64,000 nucleotides of DNA from Ulva prolifera (lineage: Eukaryota; Chlorophyta; Ulvophyceae; Ulvales; Ulvaceae), in contig CM041198.1 of assembly GCA_023078555.1 (NCBI GenBank), forward strand, positions 1,407,800 to 1,471,799, given 5' to 3'. A model generated the notes under the pieces. It saw only the letters and a program-made list of their open reading frames with translations, was not told where the DNA came from and searched no databases. Numbering within the stretch: position 1 is the first letter of the stretch; each line of letters opens with the position of its first letter. Positions 38,867 through 62,180 of the stretch are shown piece after piece. The translations under genes were made by a program, and so were the position numbers.

Positions 38867-39215
38867 TGTCGGAAAGGCTATCCTTTGTCAGGTCAGACAC
38901 GCAGTCTTTACGTCAAGTCAGGAGACCAGCATCTCATACCTGCTGCGCACAGAGGTAGAACCAGAGAGATGCAAGGGGAGACAGAGTACAGCTAGTACCG
39001 TGAAACAGTAAGAATAATGGTTACAGATCTCAATGTGCACACTCCTATTTGCACACTGAACACTCAAGGTTACGCCGGGAAACCCTCGCAGGATCTCCCT
39101 CACTACATCGAGACAATCCTGGCTGGCGGCTTACCCCTACACTGGATCCGCGGATCGCCCGTGCATGGGTGCACCTGTCACCACGCTGCTGCCCGCAGGC
39201 GCATGCATTGTGACA
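38867..39215 (-). repeat. 3' LTR of Copia A minus copy
   Basis: 349 bp, starting TGTCACAATGC and ending CCTTTCCGACA on the minus strand. It is homologous to 55997-56353. The 5'-TG...CA-3' ends are present. Confidence 0.85.
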
Positions 39216-39230
39216 CTCCCCCATAAACCC

Positions 39231-40102
39231 TGCTAAGTCTCCACTAGCTAGAGTTTATTACGAACTTCCTGCAAAGCAGGTCCGGGCAGCACTTTGGTAA
39301 ACACATCTGCTAACTGATCAACAGTGCCTACCCATGCTACCTTAAGTTCATCCATCTAGACATATTCCCGCGCTCGCAAGTGGCGCACACGAATGTGCTT
39401 GGATCTGTCAGAGGACACAGCATTCACCGCCAAAATATTGGCACTCTTATTATCACCCCAAGTGGGGTACAGAGTCGGCTTATGTGGGACAAGCTTCACA
39501 TCGAGAAGCAATTGCTTCATCCACATGAGCTCGTTGGCTGTTGCGCTCATCGCAATGAGCTCAGCCTCTGTTGTATCCCCAGCCACTATACTCTGCTTCT
39601 TCGGACGCCAGAGAACACAGTTCCCATACACCCGAATAATCATACCAGACACACTCTTTAGATCCGCAGAATTCGCAAAATCTGCATCTGAAAAAGCCTC
39701 TAGTAAACACCCGTGTCCCTCAGAGCCTACAAATTTTATTCCTAGATTTTTCGTGGACTGTAGGTATCTCAGGACATGTTGCACGGCAGACCAATGTTCC
39801 TTCAGACTACTAGACATGTGCCGGGCCAGGGCATGTGCCACATAGCTCAGGTCAGGTCGTGTCACTCCTGCAATATACTGGATGCTTCCTACATCACTCA
39901 TGAACATGGAATGCTCAGCAGCACTGGCTTTCTCCAGGTCAGGATGCTCTTTCACACTCCTTAGCTTATTGCCGCGGCACTAATGGAGTGGGAGATTTAC
40001 GACAGTCAGACATACTGTACTTGTCCAGCAAGTTCTGGATTTTGTTGCGTTGTGTCATTGTGATTGTTTTGGCCTTTCGATCACGCGTGATCTCAGTGCC
40101 AA
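39231..40102 (-). pseudogene. Copia A minus copy: end of reverse transcriptase and RNase H
   Basis: It encodes GTEITRDRKAKTITMTQRNK, the LSYVAHALARHMSSS region and the RNase H blocks DADFANSADLK, TEAELIAMSA and WGDNKSANILAV. Relative to the plus copy there is CAA to TAA plus a base shift near 39965, a 9-nt insertion (YPT) before WGDNKS, and CGG to TAG after REYV. The protein is broken in at least three places. Confidence 0.8.
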
Positions 40103-40625
40103 TGTGGTGAAACCAGGAGTTTTCAGGAGAATCATAAGCATGGCTCAATAGGAGACTGCTGTGTGAGGGAGCTAGAAGCTAGCATATCAAGAGGTGGTTG
40201 TACGCATGGTTGCTGTACACGTGCTCGACACGATCCCTGAGATAAAGGGACTCAGAAAGCGGGAGCGTTTGTTGTTTTGCACATAGGTAGACATTATGTG
40301 TCTGTGTGCTTTTTTGCATATAAGCCTTGTGTTGACTCCAGTAGGACATCTTGTCTATTGGAGTTAAACACAGGTATGGTGTCCTCTAGCTGACATGCAT
40401 GGATATGTGGTTGGTTTGTGCTTGTGGACACATAGTCTGCTGAGTTGGTATAACTCATCATGTTGAATGCAGGCTGCATGAATCAGTGAGTACTCTAGAG
40501 GGAGATACATTCACAGCAGCTGTGTTCTTTCACAGGTATACTTCTACTTAGTGTATACCTCTGTAATCTTGTCTATTGGAGTTAAACACAGGCTGCATGA
40601 ATCAGTGAGTACTCTAGAGGGAGAT
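40103..40625 (+). repeat. Solo LTR of Copia B, left part (plus orientation)
   Basis: It starts TGTGGTGAAACCAGG, runs through the LTR including the internal 117-bp duplication, and ends at GAGGGAGAT where the second B element entered. The remaining 28 bp are at 44838-44865. It is more diverged from the B LTRs (for example GATCAT versus GATGCT-type changes) than they are from each other. Confidence 0.8.
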
Positions 40626-41172
40626 TGTGAAAGAACACAGCTGCTGTGAGTGTCTCCCTCTAGAGTACTCACAGATTCATGCAGCCTGTGTTTAACTCCA
40701 ATAGACAAGATTACAGAGGTATACACTAAGTAGAAGTATACCTGTGAAAGAACACAGCTGCTGTGAGTGTCTCCCTCTAGAGTACTCACAGATTCATGCA
40801 GCCTGCATTCAACATGCTGAGTTATACCAACTCAGCAGACTATGTGTCCACAAGCACAAACCAACCACATATCCATGCATGTCAGCTAGAGGACACCACA
40901 CCTGTGTTTAACTCCAATAGACAAGATGTCCTACTGGAGTCAACACAAGGCTTATATGCAAACAAGCACACAGACACATAATGTCTACCTATGTGCAAAA
41001 CAACAAACGCTCCCGCTTTCTGAGTCCCTTTATCTCAGGGATCGCGTCGAGCACGTGTACAGCAACCATGCGTACAACCACCTCTTGATATGCTAGCTTC
41101 TAGCTCCCTCACACAGCAGTCTCCTATTGAGCCATGCTTATGATTCTCCTGAAAACTCCTGGTTTCACCACA
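40626..41172 (-). repeat. 3' LTR of Copia B
   Basis: 547 bp, TGTGGTGAAACC to TTCTTTCACA. A stretch beginning CTGCATGAATCTGTGAGTAC and ending at TTTCACA occurs twice, 117 bp apart. The TATA-like CATATAAGCC motif is shared with the Copia A LTR. Confidence 0.9.
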
Positions 41173-41186
41173 GCCCCCCTGAATCA

Positions 41187-44100
41187 TCAGACTGATTCAA
41201 TCTGAGAGATCTGCATTCCCAGCGCCTTTGCTCCTGCCTCCTGCTTCGGGCCTGGAAGCGCCTTGGTGAGGATGTCAGCCTTCATCTCCTCTGTCTTGAC
41301 AAACACTGCTTCAATGTCTCCTTGCATCACACGGTGGCGGACAAAATGAAACGCAATGTCTATGTGCTTTGTCCTACCAGCTGCTCCTGGAGTATGCTGC
41401 TTCATCAAAACAAGGGCGGACTGGTTGTCCCCATACAGTCGAATACGCTGCATCTGCCCACTCAGCTCAGCCATGAGCTTGCGAACCCACAACACCTCCT
41501 TCACCGCTGCAGCTGCTGCCACATACTCAGCCTCACATGTTGAGCAAGCTACCACAGTCTGCAACTTGGATTTCCAGACCACAGGACCACCATGCATGAG
41601 TACAACTGCACCTGAGGTGCTCTTTCTAGAGTCAGGCTCACCAGCGTAATCAGCATCTGTGTATGCCTCTACAGCGGGCATACCACGCTGATACACAATG
41701 CCCCTATCAAGCGTACTAGCAATGTACCGCAGCACACGCTTGGCAGCTTTCCAATGCACATCAGTTGCAGTTGCCACAAAACGACTCAGTACACCACATG
41801 CATATGCAAGATCAGGCCGAGTGTTCACAGTCAGATACAGCAAGGACCCAACAAGCTCAGCGTATGGAGTCTCATCACCGAGAGGAGTGCCTTCATGTCG
41901 CCCCAGATGTGTGTTTGCCTCCAGCGGTGTGGTGACCGCTTTGCTGTCAGACATGCCGAAACGCTCCAGCACATCACGGGCATACTTCGGCTGACCCAAC
42001 CAGATCTGCCCTAGCTCACGGTCCCTCCGAAGCTGCAGACCCAGGAAGTAGGTGACCTTCCCGATGTCCTTGATCTCAAAGGCGCCGGCGATTGCCGCCA
42101 AGGCTGCCTGAACCATCTGCTTCCTGCCGATGATTATACCGTCGTCCACGTAGATCAGAATGTAGACTCGCCGCTGCCCTTTACCTTTGTAGAACATGCA
42201 TGGGTCCGACTCCGATGCAGTGAATCCGAGACGGGTGAGCTCGCTCAGCAGCTTGGCGTGCCAGGCACGCGCAGCCTGCTTCAGCCCATACAGAGCTTTC
42301 CGCAGTCTGTATGTGCGGCCGCCGAATGCCTCCGGCATCCGAACGTACACCTCGTCGGTCGGGTCAAGCTCCCCATTCAGGAAAGCTGTTGCCACATCAA
42401 ACTGATGCAGCTCAAAATCATGCTCCGCAGCGTGTGCGAGCATGACTCGAAATGTCGCTTGCTGAGCAGTGGGAGCAAAAACTTCTTCGAAGTCCATGCC
42501 CTTGCGCTGCAAGCACCCCAGCACTACCAGCCGGGTCTTGTACTTGTCAACTGCTCCAAACGCATCGCGCTTGATTTTGTAGACTGGTTTCATCGGCAGA
42601 ACCCTCTTTCCCATTGGTACTTCAGTCACGAGGTCCAGAACCCCCTTCTCAATGATGGATGTCCACTCTGCGTCCATGGATGCACGCCAGAGCTCCGCAT
42701 CAGGTCGGCCAAGCGCCTCCGCAGTCGTCTTCGGTTCATCTGTCAGCCCGTCCGCAGCGTACGCATACGCATGGGGTTGAAATGCATCAGGTGCACGCCG
42801 CTCCCGTCTGGGGTACCTGTGTGCTGGTATCTCTTCTACGGGTGGCGCGCCCGCATCACCGTCATTGTCGGGGTCTTCACCACCATCGGCGTTGCCGTCA
42901 TCACCAGCATCACCACCACCATCGTCGCCAGCATCTTCATTGCCGTCATCACCAGCATCGTCGTCGGAGTCTTCACCGTCCGAGTCCTCGGCATCACTGG
43001 CAGCTTCCAGTGGTGGCATGTCCGCATACATGTCTGGCTCTCCAAGATTAGGAGCCATCAGGTCTTCACCGGTCTCTGAGCCCACCGGCTCTGCATCTGC
43101 GGGCATCATCTCGCAGTTCATTTCATACACACGCCCACGCTTCTGTCCTGTGAGGATGATGCCTCCTTTAGCGTCCATGATCTCACATCTGTCACCCTTC
43201 TGGGTGCACTCATGAGCTGCTTCAGTTGCCAGGAACCCTGATAGAAGGTTCACTGTCATGCTCGGTACCCATAGCACCGAACGCAGCAGCACCAGGCCCG
43301 CTGGGCCTCCATCCAGCCACACTTCTCCTTCTCCCATGACATCGTGGCACTCACCACCTCCCAGAACCACTCGCTTGGTGCTGCTAGGTCTCATGTCACG
43401 AATCACATTGCGATTGTGTACAATGTGGTGAGAAGATCCGCTGTCGTAGAGCAGAGCATCAGTGCTTGCCCCGGCGGCCATTGCCATCCCCTCGGATGGA
43501 TGTGCAGCTTGTGCAACCATTGCTGCTGCCGGCCGCGGGCGATCCTCAGGCTTCACCTTCGGTTGCCGACAGTCCTTCTGGATGTGGCCTACCTTCCCGC
43601 AGTTGAAACATTTCCGCGTCTCTTTCCGCTTCTTCTGGCCCTCGGCGTTCATCGCCTTGCCATCTCTGTTCCCAGCACTCTGCTGAGAACTCTCCACCAG
43701 TCTGACGGCAGCCTTCAGCTCCTTCATGACCTGGTTGAAGCCTGCGCTCACATGCTGTGTAAGCATCATGACCAGGGACCCCCTCTCTGGAGCCTCCTTT
43801 AGTCCACGCACGAGCGCATTCGCGGCCAGCTGATCCGCTGCCGCGAAGTCGGTGTCTTGAAGCTTCTCAAGAACCTCAAGCACCCTCTCTGCATACCGCG
43901 TGTATGCCTCCGATGAGCCTTGCCGAATGTCATTCAGCTCGCTCACCAAGAGCGGTTGCCGAAGCTCCTGCTCCGCCTCGTATTCAGCACGCACTTGCTG
44001 CCACGCCGCCATGGTGGTGGCTGCACGGTCAATGATGCGCGCCAGACCTCTGTCTTCGACGCAGAGCAGCATCCTGCTCCGGACCTTCGCGTCCGCCATC

Positions 44101-44258
44101 ACTTCCTGTTGTGCAGCCATGTCTGGCTACTCTGTGAGCCAGCCCTCCACTCCCATAGTAGTCAAGGATGCCCGGAACTGTGCAACCCACAGCCGGTAGT
44201 CCCCACCCCGCTTCAGCTTGCGGACGGCATGGAGAGTGCTGCTTCGTTGACCTTCCAT
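41187..44258 (-). CDS. Copia B Gag-Pol polyprotein without integrase, one amber codon
   Basis: The first ATG (44258) opens MEGQRSSTLHAVRK...GDYRLWVAQFRASL. This is the start of a Copia Gag and ends at TAG (44129-44127) after 43 codons. The same frame reopens at ATG 44120 for 977 residues to TGA. In the 977-residue part: Gag capsid region 1-150; CCHC knuckle CFNCGKVGHIQKDC 171-184; protease DSG at 226-228; an acidic Asp/Gly linker about 375-424; reverse transcriptase from about 465 with YVDD at 657-660; RNase H with YTDADYAGEPDSRKSTSG, CEAEYVAAA and YGDNQSAL. The HHCC zinc finger and DDE core expected between protease and reverse transcriptase are absent, with no frameshift. The amber codon may be read through, bypassed by re-initiation, or be a fresh mutation. 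Confidence 0.85.
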
Positions 44259-44273
44259 TGCGCTTAACACAAT

Positions 44274-44285
44274 GAGCCCATAACC
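44274..44285 (-). other. Primer-binding site of Copia B (half-tRNA type)
   Basis: GGTTATGGGCTC directly follows the 5' LTR. It is complementary to the anticodon stem-loop of initiator methionine tRNA (around the CAU anticodon) rather than to a tRNA 3' end. Drosophila copia is known to prime from an internal cut in initiator tRNA at a GGTTATGGGCCC site. Confidence 0.75.
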
Positions 44286-44832
44286 TGTGAAAGAACACAG
44301 CTGCTGTGAGTGTCTCCCTCTAGAGTACTCACAGATTCATGCAGCCTGTGTTTAACTCCAATAGACAAGATTACAGAGGTATACACTAAGTAGAAGTATA
44401 CCTGTGAAAGAACACAGCTGCTGTGAGTGTCTCCCTCTAGAGTACTCACAGATTCATGCAGCCCGCATTCAACATGCTGAGTTATACCAACTCAGCAGAC
44501 TATGTGTCCACAAGCACAAACCAACCACATATCCATGCATGTCAGCTAGAGGACACCACACCTGTGTTTAACTCCAATAGACAAGATGTCCTACTGGAGT
44601 CAACACAAGGCTTATATGCAAACAAGCACACAGACACATAATGTCTACCTATGTGCAAAACAACAAACGCTCCCGCTTTCTGAGTCCCTTTATCTCAGGG
44701 ATCGCGTCGAGCACGTGTACAGCAACCATGCGTACAACCACCTCTTGATATGCTAGCTTCTAGCTCCCTCACACAGCAGTCTCCTATTGAGCCATGCTTA
44801 TGATTCTCCTGAAAACTCCTGGTTTCACCACA
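44286..44832 (-). repeat. 5' LTR of Copia B
   Basis: 547 bp, identical to the 3' LTR except one base. The TATA-like motif is at 44616-44611 on the minus strand. Confidence 0.9.
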
Positions 44833-44870
44833 GAGATACATTCACAGCAGCTGTGTTCTTTCACAGCCAA

Positions 44871-47800
44871 GTGCCCAAGACAGGTCACCTAGATCTCTGC
44901 CTTCAAATTTCGTGAGAATGACACTGATGATTTCCTGCAGCCCCGCGGAGCAACTGAAAATGAATAAGTCATCTACCCACAGAAAAATGAGACATCGAGC
45001 AGTTGTTCTGACATACAGTCCAGGATCACTTTGTGCGCACACAAATCCCAGTTCAGCCAAGACCTTTACTAAAGCTTTATGCCACTCGCGAGCGGCTTGC
45101 TTCAGGCCATACAGAGTCTTATGCAATTTCCATACACGTGCTGTCCCGTCTGTAAAGTACGGGGGCTGTTCAACGAAAACCTCTTCCTCCAGGTCACCGT
45201 TAAGAAAAGCACACTGTATGTCTATATGCCTAATCTCCAAATCCTCCTGAGCAGCAATGGACAGCAACACACGCAGTGTCGCGTAACTACCGACAGGGGA
45301 CCAAGTCTCGAAGAAATCTATCCCTTCTACCTGGGAGAAACCACGAGCTACATAACGTGCCTTGTAACGCTGAATCTCACCAGCGGGTCCGCGCTTGATC
45401 TTGAACACCCTCTTGCCCGAGATAGCTTTCTTACACGCAGGCAGATAGCACAACATAAATGTCCCGTGCTCACCCAGTGCTTCCACCTCCTCCTGCATGG
45501 CACGCAGCCAAGCATCCCTGTGTGGACCCGCGAGTCCTTCCTTCATAGAAGGCAGATCAGGGTCGGAAGGCTTCTGCTTCCTGGCGGTAGCTGCTCTGCG
45601 CGACCCACGACGCTGAGCACTGTGCTGCTCATCAGACTCCCCATGCTGATGCTTCAGGCCTGCACCGGACACTCCACAGTCAGCCGCGGCTGATGTGTCC
45701 TGATTGCAGCCTGGAGACTTGATGTCAGCTACTACTGTTTCACTACTAGCAAGATCAGAGCCCGCGGGCTCATGCACAGCAGCTACATCCACAGCCAAAG
45801 GAACAAGGCGTCTACGTACAAGAGGATTGATTTTTATGCGGGGAAGAGCAGCTGGAATGGCTCTTACCTCATCAGGCAAATCAACCCCGACAGCGGCAGA
45901 GGGGGCAGCCTGGATCTCTCCCTCTAATTCGGATCCGGACTCCATCTCAATTTCATCTGGCTCATCCTCCCAGGAAGGTCTCAGCCCCTCAGCCCCTCGC
46001 AGGGGCTTAGCTACTGCTCCCGCGCCAGATGCTGAGGCCGCAGCCGAATTACTCCCTGATCGGACCCGCTGAGCCTCGCGATTCTGATGAGCCGCAGCCC
46101 GTTCATCATCGCTGATGGTGTACTCCTCCATCTCATGTGCATCGTCCTCACTGTAGATGCCAGGACCATCGTCATCATCATCATCCATCGGATCATCTGC
46201 TGACGGCGGAGACATGGGCAGGACGAATGCAGCTTCGATGCCAGGGTCATGGAGCTGAGCATTGCGAGTCACCACATATTCGACAGTGCGTGCTGGAGGG
46301 GCCCCAGATAGGCGCGCCTGGCCTGGGACCCGAGGTGGGACGTCAACGTCAGGGTGGGCAGCTGCACGAGCAACCGCACGCGTGCGATGCATGGCGTGCC
46401 TGGCCACCTCCGGTGTGTCCCACGCAGGGTCACGCCGGAGCACCTCAGCAGAGGAGCCTGCGCCGAAACGCGGAGAGTACACTGCCTCATCAGGCAGTGC
46501 ATCCTGCCTGAACGTCATGTCCATGACAGGGACCCTACCATGACCTGGGGGGGCGTGCGAGAATTCACGCAGACGTCTCAGCACTCCCCCATCATGCGTG
46601 GAGTCAGTCACAAACGAGGGGACATCACTGTCAGTCACGCGGACACCCTCGTTATCACCCTCAAAGACAACCTGTAGGGAGTTCGCAAACTCTGCAGGTT
46701 CTCTCTTGTCCACAACAGCGGACGCATCGTACTTACGTACGTGCCGGATCATCTGATCCGTGGTGCACATAATCTGCCGCACCACCACAACCCTACCCCC
46801 AGGAACATCCTGGGCGTACACACGCTGCATGCTGGGCCCCAGCCCAGCACCAACCCAGTATGCGACCATACCCCGTGCGGACAACTTCCGCAAGTGATCA
46901 TCCCTAGGATACGCATACACCTCAACCCCCCACGGACGCTGCTGCTTCACCAAATCATGGAACACCTCAACGGAGGTGTCTCTGAAAAAAGCCATGTAGG
47001 GAATAATATCCCTGTCACAAGACCTGGTCAAAAACTCGTCCAGTTCTGTCATAGTGAGCAGCTCCCACTTGCGCTTCTCCTCCTCGCGCAACTTATCCCG
47101 TTCGGCCTTTTTCATGCGCTTATTAGCCCGTTCAGCCTGCTGTACATCCGCAGCTGTATTGGCAGCATTGGCAGCTTTCTGGGCTTTCATCATTGTTGCT
47201 AGTTTGTCATGGTACAGCGCCGAGCACGGCGTGAGATTGTGACCATGGACGACACTAGCAAGGCATTCAATCCACAGGAACAGAGGAAGACCGCTCGCAA
47301 GCAGTGCAGCTCGGACTGCCTCAAAGGCAATACCGATCCTCCGCTCGATCATGCCATTACAGCGATGATCAGCTGTGGGGGTGGTGCGATGTGTGATGCC
47401 ACGACGCTGGATCCTCGAGGTAGAGCTTTAAGGCCTCAACCATGAACTCCCCCCCTTTGTCGGTGTGAAGGATGCGCACACCCGGTTCACCTGGCTTCAC
47501 CACATTCACCCGAATACGCTCAATGATGTAAGAGATCATGGCCGCAGCCTCACTCTTCTTACGCAGACCGACAATGAAAGTATAACGCGTGAAGGCGCAC
47601 ATCACAAACAGAACATATTTCACACCGCCGATCCCAACTGGAGTGATGGGACTAGCCAAATCAGCATGCAATTGCTCGCCAGGTTATTTCGTCTGGCCTA
47701 AGAGCTCACGATTATTGGCTGAGATTTTGCCCGCGGGCACTTTGCCAATTCTGCAGCCGTGACAACGATTCCCCATTGGCTCGGGGTCAACTTTCAAATT

Positions 47801-48409
47801 CAAATCACCATAAAATTCACCATTTGACTGCATACGCTTCAAGACCCAATTTGACTGGTGAAAGGACAAATGAGCGAGGAATGCAGGTTCCAGCAAGTAA
47901 GCATCATGTGGGACCTCAGCTCCCCCAGCACTGGGGCGCTGCAGGTCGATTGCCGCAGCAGCCACATGACACCACTGCTGTTGATCCTTCACAACAGAGG
48001 TTGGACTGCTCTGGTCAGACCAGACCACTCCCCCGTTGACAGGATGACCCTCAAGAACAGGCTTCTTGACGGAACACATTTTGAAAGCAAAGACACGACA
48101 CTTGTCCTCGTCCAGCTCCTGGTATTTGGACGCATCCTCAATACCAGTCGCCATATCTCCGAGACCCGGGACATACAACACACTCCTACGCGTGTCTAAG
48201 TAGATCTGCTCATGACGAAGACCCATAGTACTCAGTATGTTGTATGGACACTCAGGAGCATAGTACACACCCGGGATTTCCACATCCAGAGGATGCTTAT
48301 TCCCATGCTCATCCACATAAGTGCCCAGGTTCACCTGAATGGTCCCCCTGCCCATAATGGGGATGTTGCCTGGGGATGTTGCCCCGCGGGATTGGCAGTC
48401 CTCTGGCAC
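44871..48409 (-). pseudogene. Copia A minus copy: integrase and reverse transcriptase
   Basis: Fragments in order on the minus strand: 48409-47684 (pre-integrase, HHCC zinc finger), 47671-47369 (integrase core to the second catalytic Asp), 47352-44871 (end of integrase, long linker, reverse transcriptase to SWALG). Breaks relative to the plus copy are a duplication-type frameshift near 48375, TAC to TAA near 47692, and a 7-nt insertion near 47420 (CTCGAGGATCCAGCG). Reverse transcriptase then runs into the B insertion at 44865. The palindrome found in the plus copy is absent at 48289-48318, where the frame reads straight through. Confidence 0.85.
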
Positions 48410-49569
48410 CGACCGTACTCAGTGAACATGTCGCGATTGCCCACAATGTGAATGTCAGAACCGCTATCAATGATAAAATTCCACGGTGCCAATGCATCAT
48501 GATCCGGGAACTCTTCAGGCAGTTCTACATCACAAACATCTTTGGCCGCGGCCTGTTTGCGCTGGGGGCAGTTCGCACGCAAGTGTCCCTTCTTCTTGCA
48601 GAAGAAGCAGGTCCTGGTCTCCTCGCGAGGAGCCTTGCCAGCGTCGAGCGCGGCAACTGCAGGACCGTCGCCTCGCTGCTGATTGCGCCAGCCTTGGCCT
48701 GGTTTGCCCGCGGGCGGACCAGACCTAGCCTGCAGCCGCTGCTGCTTGAGCAAATCAGCATGCTCAGTCAAACGTGCAATGATGACATGGGGGGAGGAGT
48801 GTTAGACTTCGCCGCGCACGGCATTGAACTCCTCCCCCACTTCTAAAAGTTTTAATCGGAGCCATCGCTGGCCCACATCGGCACCTAGTGCCTCCAATTG
48901 AGTGTACACACTCATCACTTCACCACAGTAAGACCCAACGTCTCTATTTCGCTGTGATAAAGAGTTGAAGCGACTCCACAGTCTGTGGATCTCGGCTTCA
49001 GTGCTAGGCCTATACTTAGCAGTGGGATAGGCCCATGCCTCACACAGATGTGACATGCGATAGACAGTGGTCCTATCCGCGTCAGGCAAAGACATAAGGA
49101 CTTGAGTCCTCGCTCTAGCGTGGACACGCTGTTCGTCCGCGGACGGTGTGTGCTGCAACAGATGATCTAACTCGAACTGTCCTAACCACAAAAAGACTTT
49201 CTGCTCGTACGCAACGAAGCTTTCGGTCTTAAAATTCCACTCAGGCAATTTCCCTTTGGATAAATCAGGCTCGTTACGTCCCCGAGATGCACGCAGCGCT
49301 TCGGTCAACGTCTCGAGTGTGATGAATGACTCATTGTGACCATGATCGTTCACAACATGAGAGGAAAAGGGCACCTGCTGGCTGCTATGCCCAGTCTGGG
49401 AAGAGGGACGTGGTCGGATAACTCGTCCGCCACGAAGTAACATGCCCGCGGGCTGTTCTCCTTCAGGGAGCTGCTGGTCAGCGTCCCTGTTGACGAATGG
49501 CTGCTGATCAGCCTCGTCCTGCCTCTCCTCGCGAGGAGAGTTGGCGTTGGAGCGATCGGAGTTAGACAT
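48331..49569 (-). pseudogene. Copia A minus copy: Gag, nucleocapsid knuckle and protease
   Basis: Gag starts at ATG 49569 (MSNSDRSNANSPREERQD) and is open for 255 codons to TAA at about 48804-48802. The frame continues after this stop as HSSPHVIIARLTEHADLLKQ to the CCHC knuckle CFFCKKKGHLRANC and the protease motif FIIDSGSDIHIVGN. The TAA between capsid and nucleocapsid is shared with the plus copy. Confidence 0.8.
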
Positions 49570-49860
49570 CGTGCAGTAGGACGGACGGTAGTTTGCAGCA
49601 CGCAACGACTAACCGATGGGATGGCTCGCAAGCCGACAGGTTGAGAAAAAGAGCGAACGCATTCGCTTTTCCCAGCGCTGATCATTATAAACAAGCTTCT
49701 CGAATTGTATCTAATAACAATATGCTACGAGATCGCTTAATGACGCCTGCGCTTATGACCGCGGTCTGAGCGCCGGCAGAACAGTGGAATGCCCGCCGTG
49801 TCTGCGCACAGACTTTGGCCGACGGCTTCCTGAACAAGAGCGTAAAAGACATAGCGCAAA

Positions 49861-50010
49861 CTATCATCGATACCATGTCAGAAAGGTTATCCTTCGTCAG
49901 GTCAGACACGCAGTCCTAACGTCAAGTCAGGAGACCAGCATCTCATACCTGCTGCGCACAGAGGTAGAACCAGAGAGATGCAAGGGGAGACAGAGTACAG
50001 TTAGTACCGT
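49861..50010 (-). mobile_element. Truncated 5' LTR (U5) and primer-binding site of Copia A minus copy
   Basis: Bases 50010-49876 (minus) match the last 135 bp of the A LTR, ending CTGACA. TGGTATCGATGATAG follows at 49875-49861. The first seven bases fit the TGGTATC start common to initiator-Met primer sites of Copia elements. Base 50011 begins plus-copy leader sequence (TGCGAGCC, tandemly repeated), so this is the inversion junction. Confidence 0.75.
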
Positions 50011-50081
50011 TGCGAGCCATTGCGAGCCATCCCATCGGTTAGTCGTTGCGTGCTGCAAACTACCGTCCGTCCTACTGCACG

Positions 50082-50849
50082 ATGTCTAACTCCGATCGCT
50101 CCAACGCCAACTCTCCTCGCGAGGAGAGGCAGGACGAGGCTGATCAGCAGCCATTCGTCAACAGGGACGCTGACCAGCAGCTCCCTGAAGAAGAACAGCC
50201 CGCGGGCATGTTACTTCGTGGCGGACGAGTTATCCGACCACGTCCCTCTTCCTAGACTGGGCAGAGCAGCCAGCAGGTGCCTTTTTCCTCTCATGTTGTG
50301 AACGATCATGGTCACACTGAGTCATTCATCACACTCGAGACGTTGACCGAAGCGCTGCGTGCATCTCGGGGACGTAACGAGCCTGATTTATCCAAAGGGA
50401 AATTGCCTGAGTGGAATTTTAAGACCGAAAGCTTCGTTGCGTACGAGCAGAAAGTCTTTTTGTGGTTAGGACAGTTCGAGTTAGATCATCTGTTGCAGCA
50501 CACACCGTCCGCGGACGAACAGCGTGTCCACGCTAGAGCGAGGACTCAAGTCCTTATGTCTTTGCCTGACGCGGATAGGACCACTGTCTATCGCATGTCA
50601 CATCTGTGTGAGGCATGGGCCTATCCCACTGCTAAGTATAGGCCTAGCACTGAAGCCGAGATCCACAGACTGTGGAGTCGCTTCAACTCTTTATCACAGC
50701 GAAATAGAGACGTTGGGTCTTACTGTGGTGAAGTGATGAGTGTGTACACTCAATTGGAGGCACTAGGTGCCGATGTGGGCCAGCGATGGCTCCGATTAAA
50801 ACTTTTAGAAGTGGGGGAGGAGTTCAATGCCGTGCGCGGCGAAGTCTAA
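50082..50849 (+). pseudogene. Copia A plus copy: Gag capsid region, one nonsense codon
   Basis: ATG 50082. TAG at 50253-50255 replaces the CAG of the minus copy after 57 codons. The frame then continues from 50256 to TAA at 50847-50849. The capsid part contains LPEWNFKTESFVAYEQKV and VYRMSHLCEAW. Upstream the leader carries a duplicated TTGCGAGCCA. Confidence 0.8.
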
Positions 50850-50879
50850 CACTCCTCCCCCCATGTCATCATTGCACGT

Positions 50880-51332
50880 TTGACTGAGCATGCTGATTTG
50901 CTCAAGCAGCAGCGGCTGCAGGCTAGGTCTGGTCCGCCCGCGGGCAAACCAGGCCAAGGCTGGCGCAATCAGCAGCGAGGCGACGGTCCTGCAGTTGCCG
51001 CGCTCGACGCTGGCAAGGCTCCTCGCGAGGAGACCAGGACCTGCTTCTTCTGCAAGAAGAAGGGACACTTGCGTGCGAACTGCCCCCAGCGCAAACAGGC
51101 CGCGGCCAAAGATGTTTGTGCTGTAGAACTGCCTGAAGAGTTCCCGGATCATGATGCATTGGCACCGTGGAATTTTATCATTGATAGTGGTTCTGACATT
51201 CACATTGTGGGCAATCGCGACATGTTCACTGAGTACGGTCCGTGCCAGAGGACTGCCAATCCCGCGGGACCAGGCAAGATCCCCATTATGGGCAGGGGGA
51301 CCATTCAGGTGAACCTGGGCACTTATGCATAA
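50880..51332 (+). pseudogene. Copia A plus copy: nucleocapsid and protease, ended by a palindrome-borne stop
   Basis: It is in the same frame as Gag across the shared TAA. CCHC knuckle CFFCKKKGHLRANC; protease WNFIIDSGSDIHIVGN. TAA at 51330-51332 is created by the left edge of the 60-bp palindrome. The frame resumes at 51363. Confidence 0.8.
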
Positions 51333-51391
51333 GAGGATGCTTATTCCCATGCTCATCCACATGTGGATGAGCATGGGAATAAGCATCCTCT
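51332..51391. repeat. 60-bp perfect palindrome created by inverted duplication
   Basis: The 30 bp 51362-51391 (part of the original coding sequence) are preceded by their exact reverse complement 51332-51361, centred on CCACATGTGG. The sister copy has only the right-hand arm (minus strand, 48318-48289), so the left arm is an insertion. Confidence 0.95.
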
Positions 51392-54300
51392 GGATGTGGA
51401 AATCCCGGGTGTGTACTATGCTCCTGAGTGTCCATACAACATACTGAGTACTATGGGTCTTCGCCATGAGCAAATATACTTGGACACGCGTAGGAGTGTG
51501 TTGTATGTCCCCGGTCTCGGCGATATGGCGACTGGTATTGAGGATGCGTCCAAATACCAGGAGCTGGACAAGGATAAGTGTCGTGGCTTTGCTTTCAAAA
51601 TGTGTTCTGTCAAGAAGCCTGTTCTTCAGGGTCATCCTGTCAACAGGGGAGTGGTCTGGTCTGACCAGAGCAGTCCAACCTCTGTTGTGGAGGATCAACA
51701 GCAGTGGTGTCATGTGGCTGCTGCGGCAATTGACCTGCATCGCCCCAATGCTGGGGGAGCTGAGGTCCCACATGATGCTTACTTGCTGGAACCTGTATTT
51801 CTCGCCCATTTGTCCTTTCACCAGTCAAATTGGGTCTTGAAGCGTATGCAGTCAAATGGTGAATTTTATGGTGATTTGAATTTGAAAGTTGACCCGGAGC
51901 CAATGGGGAATCGTTGTCACGGCTGCAGAATTGGCAAAGTGCCCGCGGGCAAAATCTCAGCCAATAATCGTGAGCTCTTAGGCCAGGCGAAATACCCTGG
52001 CGAGCAATTGCATGCTGATTTGGCTGGTCCCATCACTCCAGTTGGGATCGGCGGTGTGAAATATGTCTTGTTTGTGATGTGCGCCTTCACGCGTTATACT
52101 TTCATTGTCGGTCTGCGTAAGAAGAGTGAGGCTGCGGCCATGATCTCTTATATCATTGAGCGCGTTCGGGTGAATGTGGTGAAGCCAGGTGAACCGGGTG
52201 TGCGCATCCTTCACACCGACAAAGGGGGGGAGTTCATGGTTGAGGCCTTAAAGCTCTACCTCCAGCGTCGTGGCATCACACACCGCACCACCCCCACAGC
52301 TAATCATCGCTGTAATGGCATGATCGAGCGGAGCATCGGTATTGCCTTTGAGGCAGTCCGAGCTGCACTGCTTGCGAGCGGTCTTCCTCTGTTCCTGTGG
52401 ATTGAATGCCTTGCTAGTGTCGTCCATGGTCACAATCTCACGCCGTGCTCGGCGCTGTACCATGACAAACTAGCAACAATGATGAAAGCCCAGAAAGCTG
52501 CCAATGCTGCCAATACAGCTGCGGATGTGCAGCAGGCTGAACGGGCTAATAAGCGCATGAAAAAGGCCGAACGTGATAAGTTGCGTGAGGAGGAAAAGCG
52601 CAAGTGGGAGTTGCTTACTATGACAGAGCTGGACGAGTTTTTGACCAGGTCTTGTGACAGGGATATTATTCCCTACATGGCTTTTTTCAGAGACACCTCC
52701 GTTGAGGTGTTCCAGGATTTGGTGAAGCAGCAGCGTCCATGGGGGGTTGAGGTGTATGCGTATCCTAGGGATGATCACTTGCGGAAGTTATCTGCACGGG
52801 GTATGGTCGCATACTGGGTTGGTGCTGGGCTGGGGCCCAGCATGCAGCGTGTGTACGCCCAGGATGTTCCTGGGGGTAGGGTTGTGGTGGTGCGGCAGAT
52901 TATGTGCACCACGGATCAGATGATCCGGCACGTACGCAAGTACGATGCGTCCGCTGTTGTGGACAAGAGAGAGCCTGCAGAGTTTGCGAACTCCCTACAG
53001 GTTGTCTTTGAGGGTGATGACGAGGGTGTCCGCGTGACTGACAGTGATGTCCCCTCGTTTGTGACTGACTCCACGCATGATGGGGGAGTGCTGAGACGTC
53101 TGCGTGAATTCTCGCACGCCCCCCCAGGTCATGGTAGGGTCCCTGTCATGGACATGACGTTCAGGCAGGACGCACTGCCCGACGTGGCAGTGTACTCTCG
53201 GCGTTTCGGCGCAGGCTCCTCTGCTGAGGTGCTCCGGCGTGACCCTGCGCGGGACACACCGGAGGTGGCCAGGCACGCCATGCATCGCACGCGTGCGATT
53301 GCTCGTGCGGCTGCCCACCCTGACGTTGCGGTCCCCCCTCGGGTCTCGGGCCAGGCGCGCCTATCTGGGGCCCCTCCAGCGTGCACTGTCGAGTACGTTG
53401 CGACTCGTAATGCTCAACTCCATAACCCTGGCATCGAAGCTGCGTTCGTCCTGCCCATGTCTCCACCGTCAGCAGATGATCCGATGGATGATGATGAAGA
53501 TGACGGCCCTGGCATCTACAGTGACGACGATGCAGATGAGATGGAGGAGTACACCATCAGCGATGATGAACGGGCTGCGGCTCATCAGAATCGCAAGGCT
53601 CAGCGGGTCCGAACAGGGGGTAATTCGGCTGCGGCCTCAGCATCTGGCGCGGGAGCATTAGCTACGCCCCTGCGAGGGGCTGAGGGGCTGAGACCTTCCT
53701 GGGAGGATGAGCCAGATGAAATTGAGATGGAGTCCGGATCCGAATTAGGGGGAGAGATCCGGGCTGCCCCCTCTGCCGCTGCCGGGGTTGATTTGCCTGA
53801 TGAGGTAAGAGCCATTCCAGCTGCTCTTCCCCGCATTAAAATCAATCCTCTTGTACGTAGACGCCTTGTTCCTTTGGCTGTGGATGTAGCTGCTGTGCAT
53901 GAGCCTGCGGGTTCTGATCATGCTAGTAGTGAAACAGTAGTAGCTGACATCAAGTCTCCAGGCTGCAATCAGGACACATCAGCCGCGGCTGACTGTGGAG
54001 TGTCCGGTGCAGGCCTGAAGGATCAGCATGGGGAGTCTGGTGAGCAGGACAGTGCTCAGCGTCGTGGGTCGCGCAGAGCAGCTGCCGCCAGGAAGCAGAA
54101 GCCTTCCGACCCTGATCTGCCTTCTATGAAGGAAGGACTCGCGGGTCCAGACAGGGATGCTTGGCTGCGTGCCATGCAGGAGGAGGTGGAAGCACTGGGT
54201 GAGCACGGGACATTTAGTTTGTGCTATCTGCCTGCGGGTAAGAAAGCTATCTCGGGCAAGTGGGTGTTCAAGATCAAGCGCGGACCCGCTGGTGAGATTC

Positions 54301-54806
54301 AGCGTTACAAGGCACGTTATGTAGCTCGTGGTTTCTCCCAGGTAGAAGGGATAGATTTCTTCGAGACTTGGTCCCCTGTCGGTAGTTACGCGACACTGCG
54401 TGTGTTGCTGTCCATTGCTGCTCAGGAGGATTTGGAGATTAGGCATATAGACATACAGTGTGCTTTTCTTAACGGTGACCTGGAGGAAGAGGTTTTCGTT
54501 GAACAGCCCCCGTACTTTACAGACGGGACAGCACGTGTATGGAAATTGCATAAGACTCTGTATGGCCTGAAGCAAGCCGCTCGCGAGTGGCATAAAGCTT
54601 TAGTAAAGGTCTTGGCTGAACTGGGATTTGTGTGCGCACAAAGTGATCCTGGACTGTATGTCAGAACAACTGCTCGATGTCTCATTTTTCTGTGGGTAGA
54701 TGACTTATTCATTTTCAGTTGCTCCGCGGGGCTGCAGGAAATCATCAGTGTCATTCTCACGAAATTTGAAGGCAGAGATCTAGGTGACCTGTCTTGGGCA
54801 CTTGGC
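51363..54806 (+). pseudogene. Copia A plus copy: integrase and reverse transcriptase
   Basis: About 1150 codons open. Residues from Met 51363: integrase HHCC finger H149, H153, C185, C188; catalytic D219, D286 and E322, with the second and third acids spaced by 35 residues as in the DDE family; a long linker rich in Asp/Glu and Ser/Ala (about 400-920); reverse transcriptase with KARYVARGFSQVEGIDF, QCAFLNGDLEEEVFVEQPP, LYGLKQAAREWHKAL and the active-site LWVDDLFIF. The frame is cut at SWALG (54806) by the B-derived insertion. The domain order integrase before reverse transcriptase is the Copia/Ty1 order. Confidence 0.85.
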
Positions 54807-55119
54807 TGTGAAAGAACACAGCTGCTGTGAATGTATCTCTGTGGTGAAACCAGGAGTTTTCAGGAGAATCATAAGCATGGCTCAATAGGAGACTGCTGTG
54901 TGAGGGAGCTAGAAGCTAGCATATCAAGAGGTGGTTGTACGCATGGTTGCTGTACACGTGCTCGACGCGATCCCTGAGATAAAGGGACTCAGAAAGCGGG
55001 AGCGTTTGTTGTCTATTGAGCCCCTAGACAGCGTTTGTTGTCTACTGAGCGTTTGTTGTCTACTGAGCCCCTATTGAGCCATGCTTATGATTCTCCTGAA
55101 AACTCCTGGTTTCACCACA
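54807..55119 (+). mobile_element. Collapsed Copia B insertions with filler DNA
   Basis: The target duplication TTGGC lies at 54802-54806 and 55120-55124. Parts in order: 54807-54839, the end of the outer solo LTR (inverted) up to ATCTC; 54840 to about 55012, the start of the inner B 5' LTR (TGTGGTGAAACC and following); about 55013-55069, filler built from repeats of GCGTTTGTTGTCTACTGAG; 55070-55119, the other end of the solo LTR. About 4.4 kb present in the minus copy is missing. Confidence 0.8.
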
Positions 55120-55979
55120 TTGGCACTGAGATCACGCGTGATCGAAAGGCCAAAACAATCACAATGACACAACGCAACAAAATCCAGAACTTGCTGGACA
55201 AGTACAGTATGTCTGACTGTCGTAAATCTCCCACTCCATTAGTGCCGCGGCAACAACTAAGGAGTGTGAAAGAGCATCCTGACCTGGAAAAAGCCAGTGC
55301 TGCTGAGCATTCCAGGTTCATGAGTGCTGTAGGAAGCATCCAGTATATTGCAGGAGTGACACGACCTGACCTGAGCTATGTGGCACATGCCCTGGCCCGG
55401 CACATGTCTAGTAGTCTGAAGGAACATTGGTCTGCTGTGCAACATGTTCTGAGATACCTGCAGTTTACGAAAAATCTAGGAATAAAATTTGTAGGCTCTG
55501 AGGGACACGGGTGTTTACTAGAGGCTTTTTCAGATGCAGATTTTGCGAATTCTGCGGATCTAAAGAGTGTGTCTGGTATGATTATTCGGGTGTATGGGAA
55601 CTGTGTTCTCTGGCGTTCGAAGAAGCAGAGTATAGTGGCTGGGGATACAACAGAGGCTGAGCTCATTGCGATGAGCGCAACAGCCAACGAGCTCATGTGG
55701 ATGAAGCAATTGCTTCTCGATGTGAAGCTTGTCCCACATAAGCCGACTTTGTGGGGTGATAATAAGAGTGCCAATATTTTGGCAGTGAATGCTGTGTCCA
55801 CTGACAGATCCAAGCACATTCGTGTGCGGCACTTGCGAGTGCGGGAGTATGTCCGGATGGATGAACTTAAGGTAGCATGGGTAGGCACTGTTGATCAGTT
55901 GGCAGATGTGTTTACCAAAGTGCTGCCCGGACCTGCCTTGCAGGAAGTTCGTAATAAACTCCAGCTAGTGGAGACTTAG
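55120..55979 (+). pseudogene. Copia A plus copy: end of reverse transcriptase and RNase H
   Basis: Open from the insertion to TAG at 55977-55979. GTEITRDRKAKTITMTQR, then ASAAEHSRFMSAVGSIQYIA; RNase H DADFANSADLK, TEAELIAMSA, WGDNKSANIL, and RSKHIRVRHLRVREYVRMDE; C-terminus VRNKLQLVET. Undamaged apart from the upstream insertion, in contrast to the minus copy. Confidence 0.85.
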
Positions 55980-55996
55980 CAGGGTTTATGGGGGAG

Positions 55997-56353
55997 TGTC
56001 ACAATGCATACGCCTGCGGGCAGCAGCGTGGTGACAGGTGCACCCATGCACGGATGGTCCGCGGATCACAGTGTAGGGGTAAGCCGCCAGTCGGGATTGT
56101 CTCGATGTAGCGAGAGAGATCCCGCGAGGGTTCCCCGTCGTAACCTTGAGTGTTGAGTGTTCAGTGTGCATATAAGCATGAGCACACTGAGATCTGTAAC
56201 CTTCATTCTTACTGTTTCACGGTACTAGCTGTACTCTGTCTCCCCTTGCATCTCTCTGGTTCTACCTCTGTGCGCAGCAGGTATGAGATGCTGGTCTCCT
56301 GACTTGACGTAAGGACTGCGTGTCTGACCTGACGAAGGATAACCTTTCTGACA
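55997..56353 (+). repeat. 3' LTR of Copia A plus copy
   Basis: 357 bp, TGTCACAATGCATACG to CCTTTCTGACA, preceded by the polypurine run TATGGGGGAG. A TATA-like GCATATAAGC lies at 56169-56178. Confidence 0.85.
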
Positions 56354-57525: not shown

Positions 57526-58614
57526 GCTCTGCAAGCAAGGTGAACGTGGTTCATGCGATCGGGCGCCATCGCACATCCGAAGCTACAACATATCCAAAGC
57601 TACAGCATACAGCTACAGCATATATGATATACGAAGTAGTTCTAAACTGGTGGCAGGCGCCATCTCGAACACAACAATGTGTGCGCCTCGACCATCGATA
57701 TCGGCACATCAGCTGCGTCTTCGACGCCTTCGCAAGGAAGTGATGTCCACGACAGCGCCGTCAGACATATACAAACGTCACACCTTGCAGCATACTTCAA
57801 TTGAGCATGTCGGAAGTTGAGCAGCGGCGATGACGCCTGCGGCTGCTGCTTGCTAACAATTAGACGCCAGCCCGGGAGTGAACGACCCGCCTACGATTCA
57901 CACCACATTATACAATAATACCCACAGACAGAGATTGTAGAAGACTTCATGCGCTCTTTCCAACCAGATACGCCGCAATGGTCATGTCGGTGCGACCGCA
58001 CACGCAGTACGGATGTCATGGCTAGCACTCCAACGCATTGAGACAGCACAACGAATTGATAATACATTTATGCTCACTGATGCAATGTTTAGGTTTTAAC
58101 AGCTCACATATGGAGATCGCGCCTGGAATGGCGAGCGTTACCGCCACACATCGCATGCACGCATGCATGCAAAAACAGCATCGCGGTGAGTGTGGCGTTA
58201 GTGGACCCAGCCATGCACGCAACCCAAACAGCCCCAGGCATCCATTACACAGATCTCATGGTGCCTCCTGGCGCTAGCATGAACCCCGGATGATTGGCGA
58301 CACCGAAAGCAGAGACACAACGGCAGTATTAGCCATACATATGTACGTGGTAAAGTAATAAAATCGTTTTAATGGTTCCGATGCAAGACAAGTCGGGCAA
58401 AAATGTAGTATATGCACCGCTGCTGCAGTACCGTTGAACGTTGTACCAATGTGGGTGTGCATGCGTGTTTGTGCGGGTGGGCACCATGTGTCGCGTGGCC
58501 TCCCCCCTCTCAGATGGCAGAGGCCCATAGTATGGCTGTGACGCAGCATGCTACAGCAGCAATGGCTCGGCAATGTATTGGGATGTCGGCAAAAGTGCGT
58601 CCTCTGCCTCATCA
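57526..58614. other. Intergenic region without a supported gene
   Basis: A short CTACAGCATA repeat lies near 57595-57625. Nothing else is recognisable. Confidence 0.4.
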
Positions 58615-59352
58615 CGCAGAGCAGAGGGGGTGAGAGTGATGCTGCCCATCGCTGCCGCAGCACAGTGGCACCTGGTTTTTCTGTGCTGTTACCCCCTCTA
58701 CCCCCCCACGCAGTGCTGCGGGGATGACAGTGATGCTGCCCATCGTTGCCGCAGCACAGTGGTGCCTGGTGTTTCTGTGCTGTTACCCCCTCTGCCCTCC
58801 CATGCAGTGCAGCGGGGTTGACAGTGTTGCTGCCCATCGTTGCCGTAGCACAGCGGCACCTGGTTCTTCTGTGCTGTTACCCCCTCTGCCCCCCCCCACG
58901 CAGTGCAGCGTGGTTGACAGTGTTGCTGCCCATCGTTGCCGTAGCACAGCGGCACCTGGTTCTTCTGTGCTGTTACCCCCTCTGCCCCCCCACGCAGTGC
59001 AGCGGGGTTGACAGTGTTGCTGCCCATCGTTGCCGAAGCACAGTGGCACCTGGTTTTTCTGTGCTGTTACCCCCTCTGCCCCCCCACGCAGTGCAGCGGG
59101 GTTGACAGTGTTGCTGCCCATCGCTGCCGCAGCACAGTGGCACCTGGTTTTTCTGTGCTGTTACCCCCTCTGCCCCCCCCACGCAGTGCAGCGGGGATGA
59201 CAGTGGTGCTGCCCATCGCTGCCGCAGCACAGTGGCACCTGGTGTTTCTGTGCTGTTACCCCCTCTGCCCCCCCACGCAGTGCAGTGGGGATGACAGTGG
59301 TGCTGCCCATCGCTGCCGCAGCACAGTGGCACTTGGTGTTTCTGTGGTGTTA
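58615..59352. repeat. Minisatellite, about eight units of 93-97 bp
   Basis: Units begin near 58615, 58708, 58801, 58898, 58992, 59086, 59181 and 59275. The core reads CACGCAGTGCAGCGGGGTTG, then CTGCCCATCGTTGCCG, then a GTGCTGTTACCCCCTCTGCC block with a C-run. Unit length is mostly 94 bp, not a multiple of three, so the open frames that cross it rotate and are not evidence of a protein. Confidence 0.9.
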
Positions 59353-60321: not shown

Positions 60322-61150
60322 TTACAAAAGAGTGAACGGGAGAAAACAAACACCGAAACCGAATCTCATCCGAATCAACAGCAACATACACTCACCCACA
60401 CACGAACACTACAACCGCACTCACAACTCAGTCCGGCAGGATCGCGTCCTCCAGGCCCGCATCATACCGCAACCCCTGCTCCCGAGAGATGACAAGCCCA
60501 GACTTCCGATACATATCCGCATTGCCGCGCTGCAATGACACCGACAACACCCGCAGCGCCCATTGGACAAACGCTCCTTTGGAGATGCGCCCACTGGCAG
60601 CGGCCACATCCCCCAACTGACCGACGAACCTCACGGCAGCCTTGCCCATGAAGCCACACGATTCGACCGCAAACGGAACAAACCGGAACGCGGCATGGTC
60701 CGGCACGTCCCGCCGGAAGCGGTCCCGCTTCCTGTCCTCCGCCCGCTCCGCCGTCGCACCCGTCTCCCGCGCCGCAGCGGCCATGTATGAGGCCTCCGGC
60801 GCATGCGTGACCACGACGTCCACGGCCGCCATCTCCAGGCGCGGCATGACCACAACGACGTCCCCGCGGCGATTCAGCTCAACACCCGCGCCCCTCGCGA
60901 GGGCACGGTAGAGCGGCTCCAGGGCAGACTGCAGTCCGGCGTAAGAGGCGACCAGGCGCAAGGCACGAGCCAGGTTATCATGGCCCAGGAAGCCATAGGA
61001 CATTCCGCGGCCGCCAAGGAAGCCATAGGACATTCCGCGACCATCGTTCCTTGTGAAGCATACGGATGCGGGCGGAAGGTCGAGAGCCTCATAGGAACGT
61101 TCCTCTGTCAGCGGAACGCCTACGGTTCCGCGGCGGAATGTCACCATTCT
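60322..61150 (-). mobile_element. LINE-ii C-terminal fragment, minus strand, at the 5' edge of GDE gene 7
   Basis: Longest LINE-ii coding fragment. It encodes RALARGAGVELNRRGDVVVV, then AAVDVVVTHAPEASYMAAAA, RKRDRFRRDVPDHAAFRFVP, FAVESCGFMGKAAVRFVGQL and the end EDAILPD (stop near 60428). The 3' tail reaches 60322 (reverse complement GTTCACTCTTTTGTAAA). The R-G-D-V and D-V-V-V-T-H residues are as in LINE-i. A 25-bp tandem duplication (GGAAGCCATAGGACATTCCG) lies at about 60989-61040. The 5' boundary is uncertain. It abuts or replaces the promoter, exon 1 and intron of gene 7. Confidence 0.7.
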
Positions 61151-61166
61151 CCTAGTGGTTGGCCTG

Positions 61167-62180
61167 ATGATGGCTGGAGCCATGATGGCCCCCGAATCCT
61201 CCAGCGCCGCCGTAACCACCTCCTCCCGGTCCGGCCGAAGCATACTAGACAGCATGAGTGGCGACGAGGGTGACGAGGGTGATGAGGGCAACGAGGTCCT
61301 CGACGGCTTCATCCGAAGTCACTCTAATCGTGGCAACGAACCTAGCGAAGAGGACACTGAATTTGAAGGGGACAAGGGCGATGAAGGCGACGAGGGAAAC
61401 GAGGGGGACGAAGGCAACGAGGGTAACAAAGGGGATGAGGGTAACGAAGGGGATGAGGCCGACGAAGGCACCGAGGGCAATGAGGGCAACGAGGGTGGCG
61501 AGGGCGATGACCCTTCACCAAGCTGCACTGAACCGCGCGTCAGATGCGTCCCCCGAGCGTCCAGTTTCATCCTAACCGCGCTGCAGCAATCGCATGACCG
61601 CCTCATCGAGACCATCATCTCCGGCCTCTGCGGCAGCAACAGCCCCAGCGTGACCGCGGCTGCAGCTGCCCTTGCAGCCACAGTCCCTGCGCACACCTTT
61701 GCTGGCATTCTGGCTGATGTGAGCACCCCTTGTCGCAATAGCTGCCAGCCGTTCAACTGTGCCGCCGCGACGGCCACCGCGCAGGCATGGGCTGACGTGA
61801 CGTCTGCATCGCACGCAGATGCCGTCGCCGCAGCGGCGGAGGGCTGTTCGTGCCTCACTGGCGCCCCCGCACTGGCCACTGCCGCGGATTCCACGCTCAT
61901 CGAAGTCACAGAGGAGGCGCTTGTCCGTGCTGAGGTTGTTTCGTGTGGTGAGCTTGGCCTCCATACACCTGAGGCCGCATACGTAAACTGCGCTGCGCTC
62001 GCGTACGCCACCGTCTGGACCAGGGCCATCGCCGAGGCGTTCCTGGAGGGCGACTGCTTCCCGAGCGATCTCGCGACCCGCATTGCCGACGAAGTCAGCA
62101 ACTTCAGCAGCTTCGGCGCGCTCGAGGGCTGCGTGCGCAGCGACTTCTCCTTCAGCGACGCCCTGGGTTCCACACCGTAA
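61167..62180 (+). CDS. GDE-family gene 7: collagen-like acidic, Ala/Cys-rich protein, 5' end lost
   Basis: The frame opens at VVGLMMAGAMMAPESSSAA. The CRMYAAA part of the signal, intron 1, exon 1 and the promoter are replaced by the LINE-ii block. ATG 61167 is the first available. The collagen-like tract includes GDK, GNK and GGE triplets, and the spacer is VLDGFIRSHSNRGNE. The Ala-rich domain is a distinct subtype, with a TPCRNSCQPFNC cluster giving eleven cysteines. It keeps WTRAIAEAFLEGDCFPSDLA and EGCVRSDFSFSDALGSTP before TAA. GTAAGA at 62177 could serve as a donor to an acceptor at 62458. The open frame of 338 codons shows little decay despite the lost 5' end. Confidence 0.6.
   Translation: MMAGAMMAPESSSAAVTTSSRSGRSILDSMSGDEGDEGDEGNEVLDGFIRSHSNRGNEPSEEDTEFEGDKGDEGDEGNEGDEGNEGNKGDEGNEGDEADEGTEGNEGNEGGEGDDPSPSCTEPRVRCVPRASSFILTALQQSHDRLIETIISGLCGSNSPSVTAAAAALAATVPAHTFAGILADVSTPCRNSCQPFNCAAATATAQAWADVTSASHADAVAAAAEGCSCLTGAPALATAADSTLIEVTEEALVRAEVVSCGELGLHTPEAAYVNCAALAYATVWTRAIAEAFLEGDCFPSDLATRIADEVSNFSSFGALEGCVRSDFSFSDALGSTP

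Follow-up and report, generated by a model that had tools for sequence, protein, structure and literature searches.

Element B, a Ty1/copia retrotransposon that runs from LTR to LTR over positions 40626-44832 on the minus strand of the 64-kb window (the whole stretch of DNA analysed here), has lost its integrase. The reading that we prefer, tentatively and at slightly less than an even chance, is that B is an isolated deletion derivative, which would have been shortened at or before integration and inserted by the integrase of a relative. We count in favour of this reading the intact LTR ends, the GAGAT target duplication, the single difference between the 547-bp LTRs, the lack of any integrase model match in the Pfam search of the B frame, and a TAG stop in gag. 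The features discussed are collected in Table 1.

Table 1. Coordinates of element B, its parts and the elements around it
Feature	Position	Strand	Remark
B 5' LTR	44286..44832	-	547 bp; TGTGG...TTCACA in coding orientation
B 3' LTR	40626..41172	-	547 bp
Target site duplication GAGAT, left copy	40621..40625	.	flank of B
Target site duplication GAGAT, right copy	44833..44837	.	flank of B
B primer binding site region GGTTATGGGCTCATTGTG	44268..44285	-	half-tRNA-Met type
B polypurine tract, G-rich CAGGGGGGC	41173..41181	-	abuts 3' LTR
First 43 gag codons, from ATG at 44258	44130..44258	-	precede TAG
In-frame TAG stop in gag	44127..44129	-	after codon 43
979-aa open frame	41187..44126	-	rest of Gag, CCHC knuckle, protease, linker, RT, RNase H; without integrase
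Acidic linker	42822..43127	-	102 aa, 37 D/E; contains the deletion junction somewhere
S, antisense solo LTR of the B family, larger piece	40103..40625	+	includes one GAGAT
S, smaller piece (33 bp) plus first base of S target duplication GCCAA	44833..44866	+	TTGGC on the A strand
A1, a different copia, host of S and B	38867..50010	-	135-bp terminal repeats 38867-39001 and 49876-50010; PBS TGGTATC
A2, second A copy, head to head with A1	50020..56353	+	without 5' LTR and leader
S+B remnant in A2	54806..55119	+	S start, GAGAT, first 173 bp of B 5' LTR, 57-bp filler, last 50 bp of S

Assignment of B to Ty1/copia is based on an RVT_2-type reverse transcriptase (RT), a copia-type Gag, a zinc knuckle, LTRs with TG..CA ends and a 5-bp target duplication. 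The two LTRs are identical at 546 of 547 positions, the sole mismatch being T at 40804 in the 3' LTR and C at 44464 in the 5' LTR. As S and the B 3' LTR both have T at this site, the C in the 5' LTR is derived. The first-pass annotation had reported one difference in 547 together with an intact target duplication, primer site and polypurine tract; all of this was confirmed, with GAGAT on both flanks and both GGTTATGGGCTC and CAGGGGGGC in place. The LTR also has a partial internal duplication, in which its positions 1-71 resemble positions 118-188 (40626-40813 and 44286-44473).

The primer-site-like GGTTATGGGCTC directly abuts the 5' LTR of B, and its letters presumably pair with the anticodon arm of a tRNA (half-tRNA-Met). 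No tRNA genes were found within the 64-kb window. Half-tRNA-Met primer sites are described as the type present in the Osser, Bryco and Gymco-II copia lineages (PMC6317226), and a half-tRNA primer is also described for Drosophila copia (PMC5371799). The GGTTATGGGCTC of B fits the Osser-type primer class, but Bryco and Gymco-II share that class. By type, the primer site of B would be like that of Osser-type copia; unlike B, Osser is described as a complete copia lineage that has integrase (PMC6317226). This type of primer site and the composition of the DNA would tentatively suggest a green alga.

No integrase was found in B. Pfam matches above the cut-off in the B frame were Retrotran_gag_2 (1.2e-07), zf-CCHC (1.7e-06), RVT_2 (2.4e-50) and Pol_BBD, with Gag_p24_C below the cut-off, and no integrase model matched the 979-aa frame at E up to 0.1. 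The same search did find rve in the neighbouring A2, at 32.3 bits versus a cut-off of 32.6. When the linker alone (42747-43130) was searched at E up to 10, two weak unrelated matches and nothing else were obtained. When this DNA was shuffled 200 times by mononucleotides, the longest open run reached 262 codons, far short of the frame. An integrase elsewhere in B is ruled out, as the frame leaves 158 bp on its 5' LTR side and 14 bp downstream.

The size of the missing part could be estimated from motif spacing, with L001, a copia on a MAG contig that has two in-frame stops, as the reference. From the protease DSG to the RT W..AM motif there are 756 nt in B, 1839 nt in L001 and 2979 nt in A2. 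The distance from DSG to VYEM in B (315 nt) matches that to the corresponding LYYLEL in L001 (312 nt), and the protease side of B is therefore complete. In contrast, 441 nt separate VYEM from W..AM in B versus 1527 nt from LYYLEL in L001, so that B is about 1.1 kb short relative to L001. Judged from these spacings, the block lost from B would extend from the HHCC finger to somewhere inside the acidic linker. The earlier description of a frame passing from protease through an acidic linker to RT, with the integrase missing but no frameshift, is thus borne out by the Pfam matches, the spacing and the open frame. As there is no integrase between protease and RT, B is not an autonomous copia and is at most a derivative of one.

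The coding capacity for the retained proteins is not intact either: the frame is open from protease to RNase H, and gag contains the TAG. It had been claimed that B encodes its own Gag, and this claim fails because of the in-frame TAG (44129-44127) after codon 43; unless the stop is read through, B does not plainly supply its own Gag. The Gag Pfam match sets in at position 35-36 of the 172-position profile, which is what a first part lying before the stop would lead one to expect, and the 43-aa piece by itself matched no Pfam model up to an E of 10. An ATG lies two codons past the TAG, and a start there would yield a Gag without its first part. Recoding of TAG, or a changed genetic code, was also considered and nothing was found in its favour; all three stops interrupt the A frames and B ends in TGA, which is not decisive.

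B lies within S, an older antisense solo LTR of its own family. S differs from the B 3' LTR by 8 mismatches and two 2-bp indels, and A1 in turn carries S within its RNase H region. A 2-bp indel and two substitutions that distinguish S from B recur in both internal LTR copies, a sign of concerted change. A2 has the same S/B junction as A1, indicating that A2 once held S and B and lost most of them in place. The filler in A2 (55013-55069) consists of repeated copies of sequence that flanks the break on both sides, as in templated end joining. Neither the nesting of B in S and A1 nor the junction in A2 had been mentioned in the earlier note.

In a repeat-rich, inverted stretch such as this, the assembler might have dropped the integrase segment. 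A1 and A2 are indeed the arms of a long inverted repeat, and copies of the LTR point both ways. However, the frame is exactly kept across the missing part, and the gap lies inside unique sequence, the interior of B having no second match in the window. We regard an assembly artefact as very improbable.

The fate of A2 shows that such sequences can be deleted in place, and the same might apply to B, which would then have entered full-length with its own integrase and lost the segment later at this locus. In A2, its portion of that insertion went in this way: the S/B junction is kept, nearly all of B is lost and repeated filler stands at the break. The deletion in B may therefore postdate insertion. 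This also counts against the reading that we prefer. In addition, the B linker has short direct repeats, namely identical 12-bp words at 42959 and 42911 and 24-bp tandem units. Unlike in A2, however, neither filler nor a break in the frame is seen at the integrase deletion of B, and the identity of the LTRs (95% interval of divergence, 0.00005-0.010) leaves little time for a later loss, although conversion could mask age. On balance, loss in place seems unlikely.

Possible conversion at the locus is indicated by the comparison of the two A copies. Of the roughly 6,000 sites outside S/B, 150 differ between A1 and A2, yet the two copies are identical over the 544 and 134 bp that adjoin S/B, where 19 differences would be expected if differences were evenly spread (Poisson chance about 5e-9, for a block picked as the neighbourhood of B). 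A second identical stretch of about 800 bp is located at 48531-49333. Identity between the copies is thus patchy: two stretches, of about 540 and 800 bp, are identical, and the sequence around them differs by 2-8%. Over 855 codons, leaving out three with multiple changes and one stop, the comparison gives 32 synonymous and 30 non-synonymous changes (pN/pS 0.30). These comparisons suggest that A1 and A2 may have diverged separately under constraint and later exchanged sequence, carrying S/B along; alternatively, an inverted duplication could have been followed by patchy conversion. A TAA in gag is common to A1 and A2 (48804 and 50847, respectively). In element A, the catalytic core of the integrase is also separated from the C-terminal part by about 400 bp (52341-52740) that include a charged, lysine-rich stretch.

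The near-identical LTRs of B fit a recent insertion. As there are signs of gene conversion at the locus, which could homogenise LTRs, their identity is not a safe date. The first-pass annotation had concluded that B is very young and so was mobile without integrase: the near-identity stands but the conclusion does not follow, as the deletion may postdate insertion and conversion may have acted. The locus calls for caution wherever LTRs look very young and nested, inverted copies may exchange sequence.

Under our preferred reading, B would descend from a copia family whose primer site is of the half-tRNA-Met type and in that trait resembles Osser. The integrase might have been lost in one piece, from a point directly behind the protease into the acidic linker and without breaking the frame, most likely at or shortly before the present insertion, by a jump of RT between short repeats or by copying of a spliced RNA. 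A full-length relative would then have supplied the integrase that placed B in the older S inside A1, and it probably also supplied Gag for packaging, given the gag stop, unless that stop arose later. The 5-bp target duplication and clean LTR ends indicate that an integrase acted when B entered; if the deletion preceded insertion, this integrase was supplied in trans. Integration by recombination was rejected, as B has a 5-bp target duplication and lies inverted in S.

Helper pairs in wheat are described as being judged by a shared primer site and shared LTR termini (PMC9744471). No element with LTR ends and a primer site matching those of B was found within the window, where A differs in both. 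A is the sole other copia in the window, and its primer site (TGGTATC) and LTR ends are not those of B; a full-length relative of B elsewhere should therefore be the helper. Element A itself was rejected as the helper within the window; in addition to these differences, S/B and stops interrupt both A copies. In keeping with our preferred reading, 30-40% of new RLC_Angela and RLG_Cereba insertions in wheat are described as possibly dead on arrival (PMC9744471).

Several points weigh against our preferred reading. One B copy is visible, so that its isolation is an assumption; a scarless in-frame deletion is also expected in a lineage under selection, though it would occur by chance in one of three cases anyway; and the gag TAG could postdate insertion.

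The lineage just mentioned had been the first-pass proposal: a stable set of integrase-less copies that keep protease and RT and use the integrase of full-length relatives; for the present copy, Gag would have to come from these as well. The proposal is consistent with a frame that stays open from protease to RNase H, across the linker and RT, and leaves the other domains recognisable, with a recent insertion with intact ends, and with published parallels among partly coding parasites. Against it, B is a single copy, none further having been detected in the viral_contigs or genome_contigs searches, and owing to the gag TAG the present copy supplies no whole Gag. We consider such a lineage doubtful. 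That B belongs to a living copia lineage which shed integrase alone, with protease, RT and RNase H under selection and the gag stop private and later, is likewise rather improbable; such a partner would make its own cDNA and borrow no more than the integration enzyme.

In viral_contigs, no confirmed relative of B was found with the B polyprotein, the RT core, the B Gag-protease or a 27-bp LTR word as queries; two of the B queries gave 22 and 4 pattern matches, with 0 confirmed. The element A stretch likewise had no confirmed relative there. Among 34 pattern matches in genome_contigs, one copia was confirmed (36%), on a cyanobacterial MAG contig, and was taken for eukaryotic contamination. Plasmid records contained four matches to B, all below 60% identity (best 36.3%) and with no B-family copy among them, and phage records contained no match to B. 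Two records filed as actinomycete plasmids, L002 and L003 (NZ_CP115454.1 and NZ_CP115302.1), carry a copia-like RT about 36% identical to that of B and look like eukaryotic contamination.

B had also been called the mirror image of coding-free non-autonomous elements. This is overstated, as coding non-autonomous LTR elements have been published (RLG_Sabrina_SA, RLG_Quinta and TR-GAG). RLG_Sabrina_SA elements are described as "semi-autonomous" wheat gypsy elements encoding Gag-protease (PMC9744471); like B, they keep some proteins of their own and depend on the enzymes of others, but they lack both RT and integrase and number thousands of copies, whereas B has kept RT-RNase H and one copy is seen. 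RLG_Quinta is described as a Gag-only element with RLG_Cereba as its helper (PMC11302176). It resembles the proposed B in being a shortened relative that an integrase-bearing partner, alike in LTR ends and primer site, cross-mobilises, and differs in coding for Gag and an unknown domain only and in having an identified helper, compared with none seen for B. In the sorghum centromeric CR2-Sb-B elements, integrase is absent or truncated in family members, similar to its absence in B, but these are gypsy elements and their RT is affected too (PMC4079200). The copia TR-GAG (AT5TE33540 of ATCOPIA63) is, like B, a deletion derivative with partial coding and a full-length relative; its transposition is reported as shown, but unlike B it encodes Gag only (PMC8704663). 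SpIREs, L1 copies of spliced RNA, offer a model for an RNA-level deletion that gives a new copy needing protein in trans, although L1 is a non-LTR element and splicing is a hypothesis for B (PMC5860796).

Among the titles and abstracts of the literature matches listed, a scope that takes in few subscription papers, no copia lineage lacking integrase alone was found. B, lacking integrase alone, is a fresh combination of a known sort, that of partly coding, trans-mobilised LTR elements. If a lineage exists, cDNA synthesis would be separated from integration in nature, raising the question of whether copia integrase acts on the cDNA of other elements inside shared particles; if B stands alone, it is a defective derivative of the ordinary kind.

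The window also contains a family of collagen-like proteins with GDEGDEGNEG repeats (696-2036, 12404-13627, 18750-19925 and 61095-62180). At E<0.01, Pfam PF01391 hits four of five scanned ORFs, two of them above the cut-off, and repeats resembling this family occur near 25766 and 34400. A tandem array at 58601-59352 comprises 8 copies of a 94-bp unit with 93% matches.
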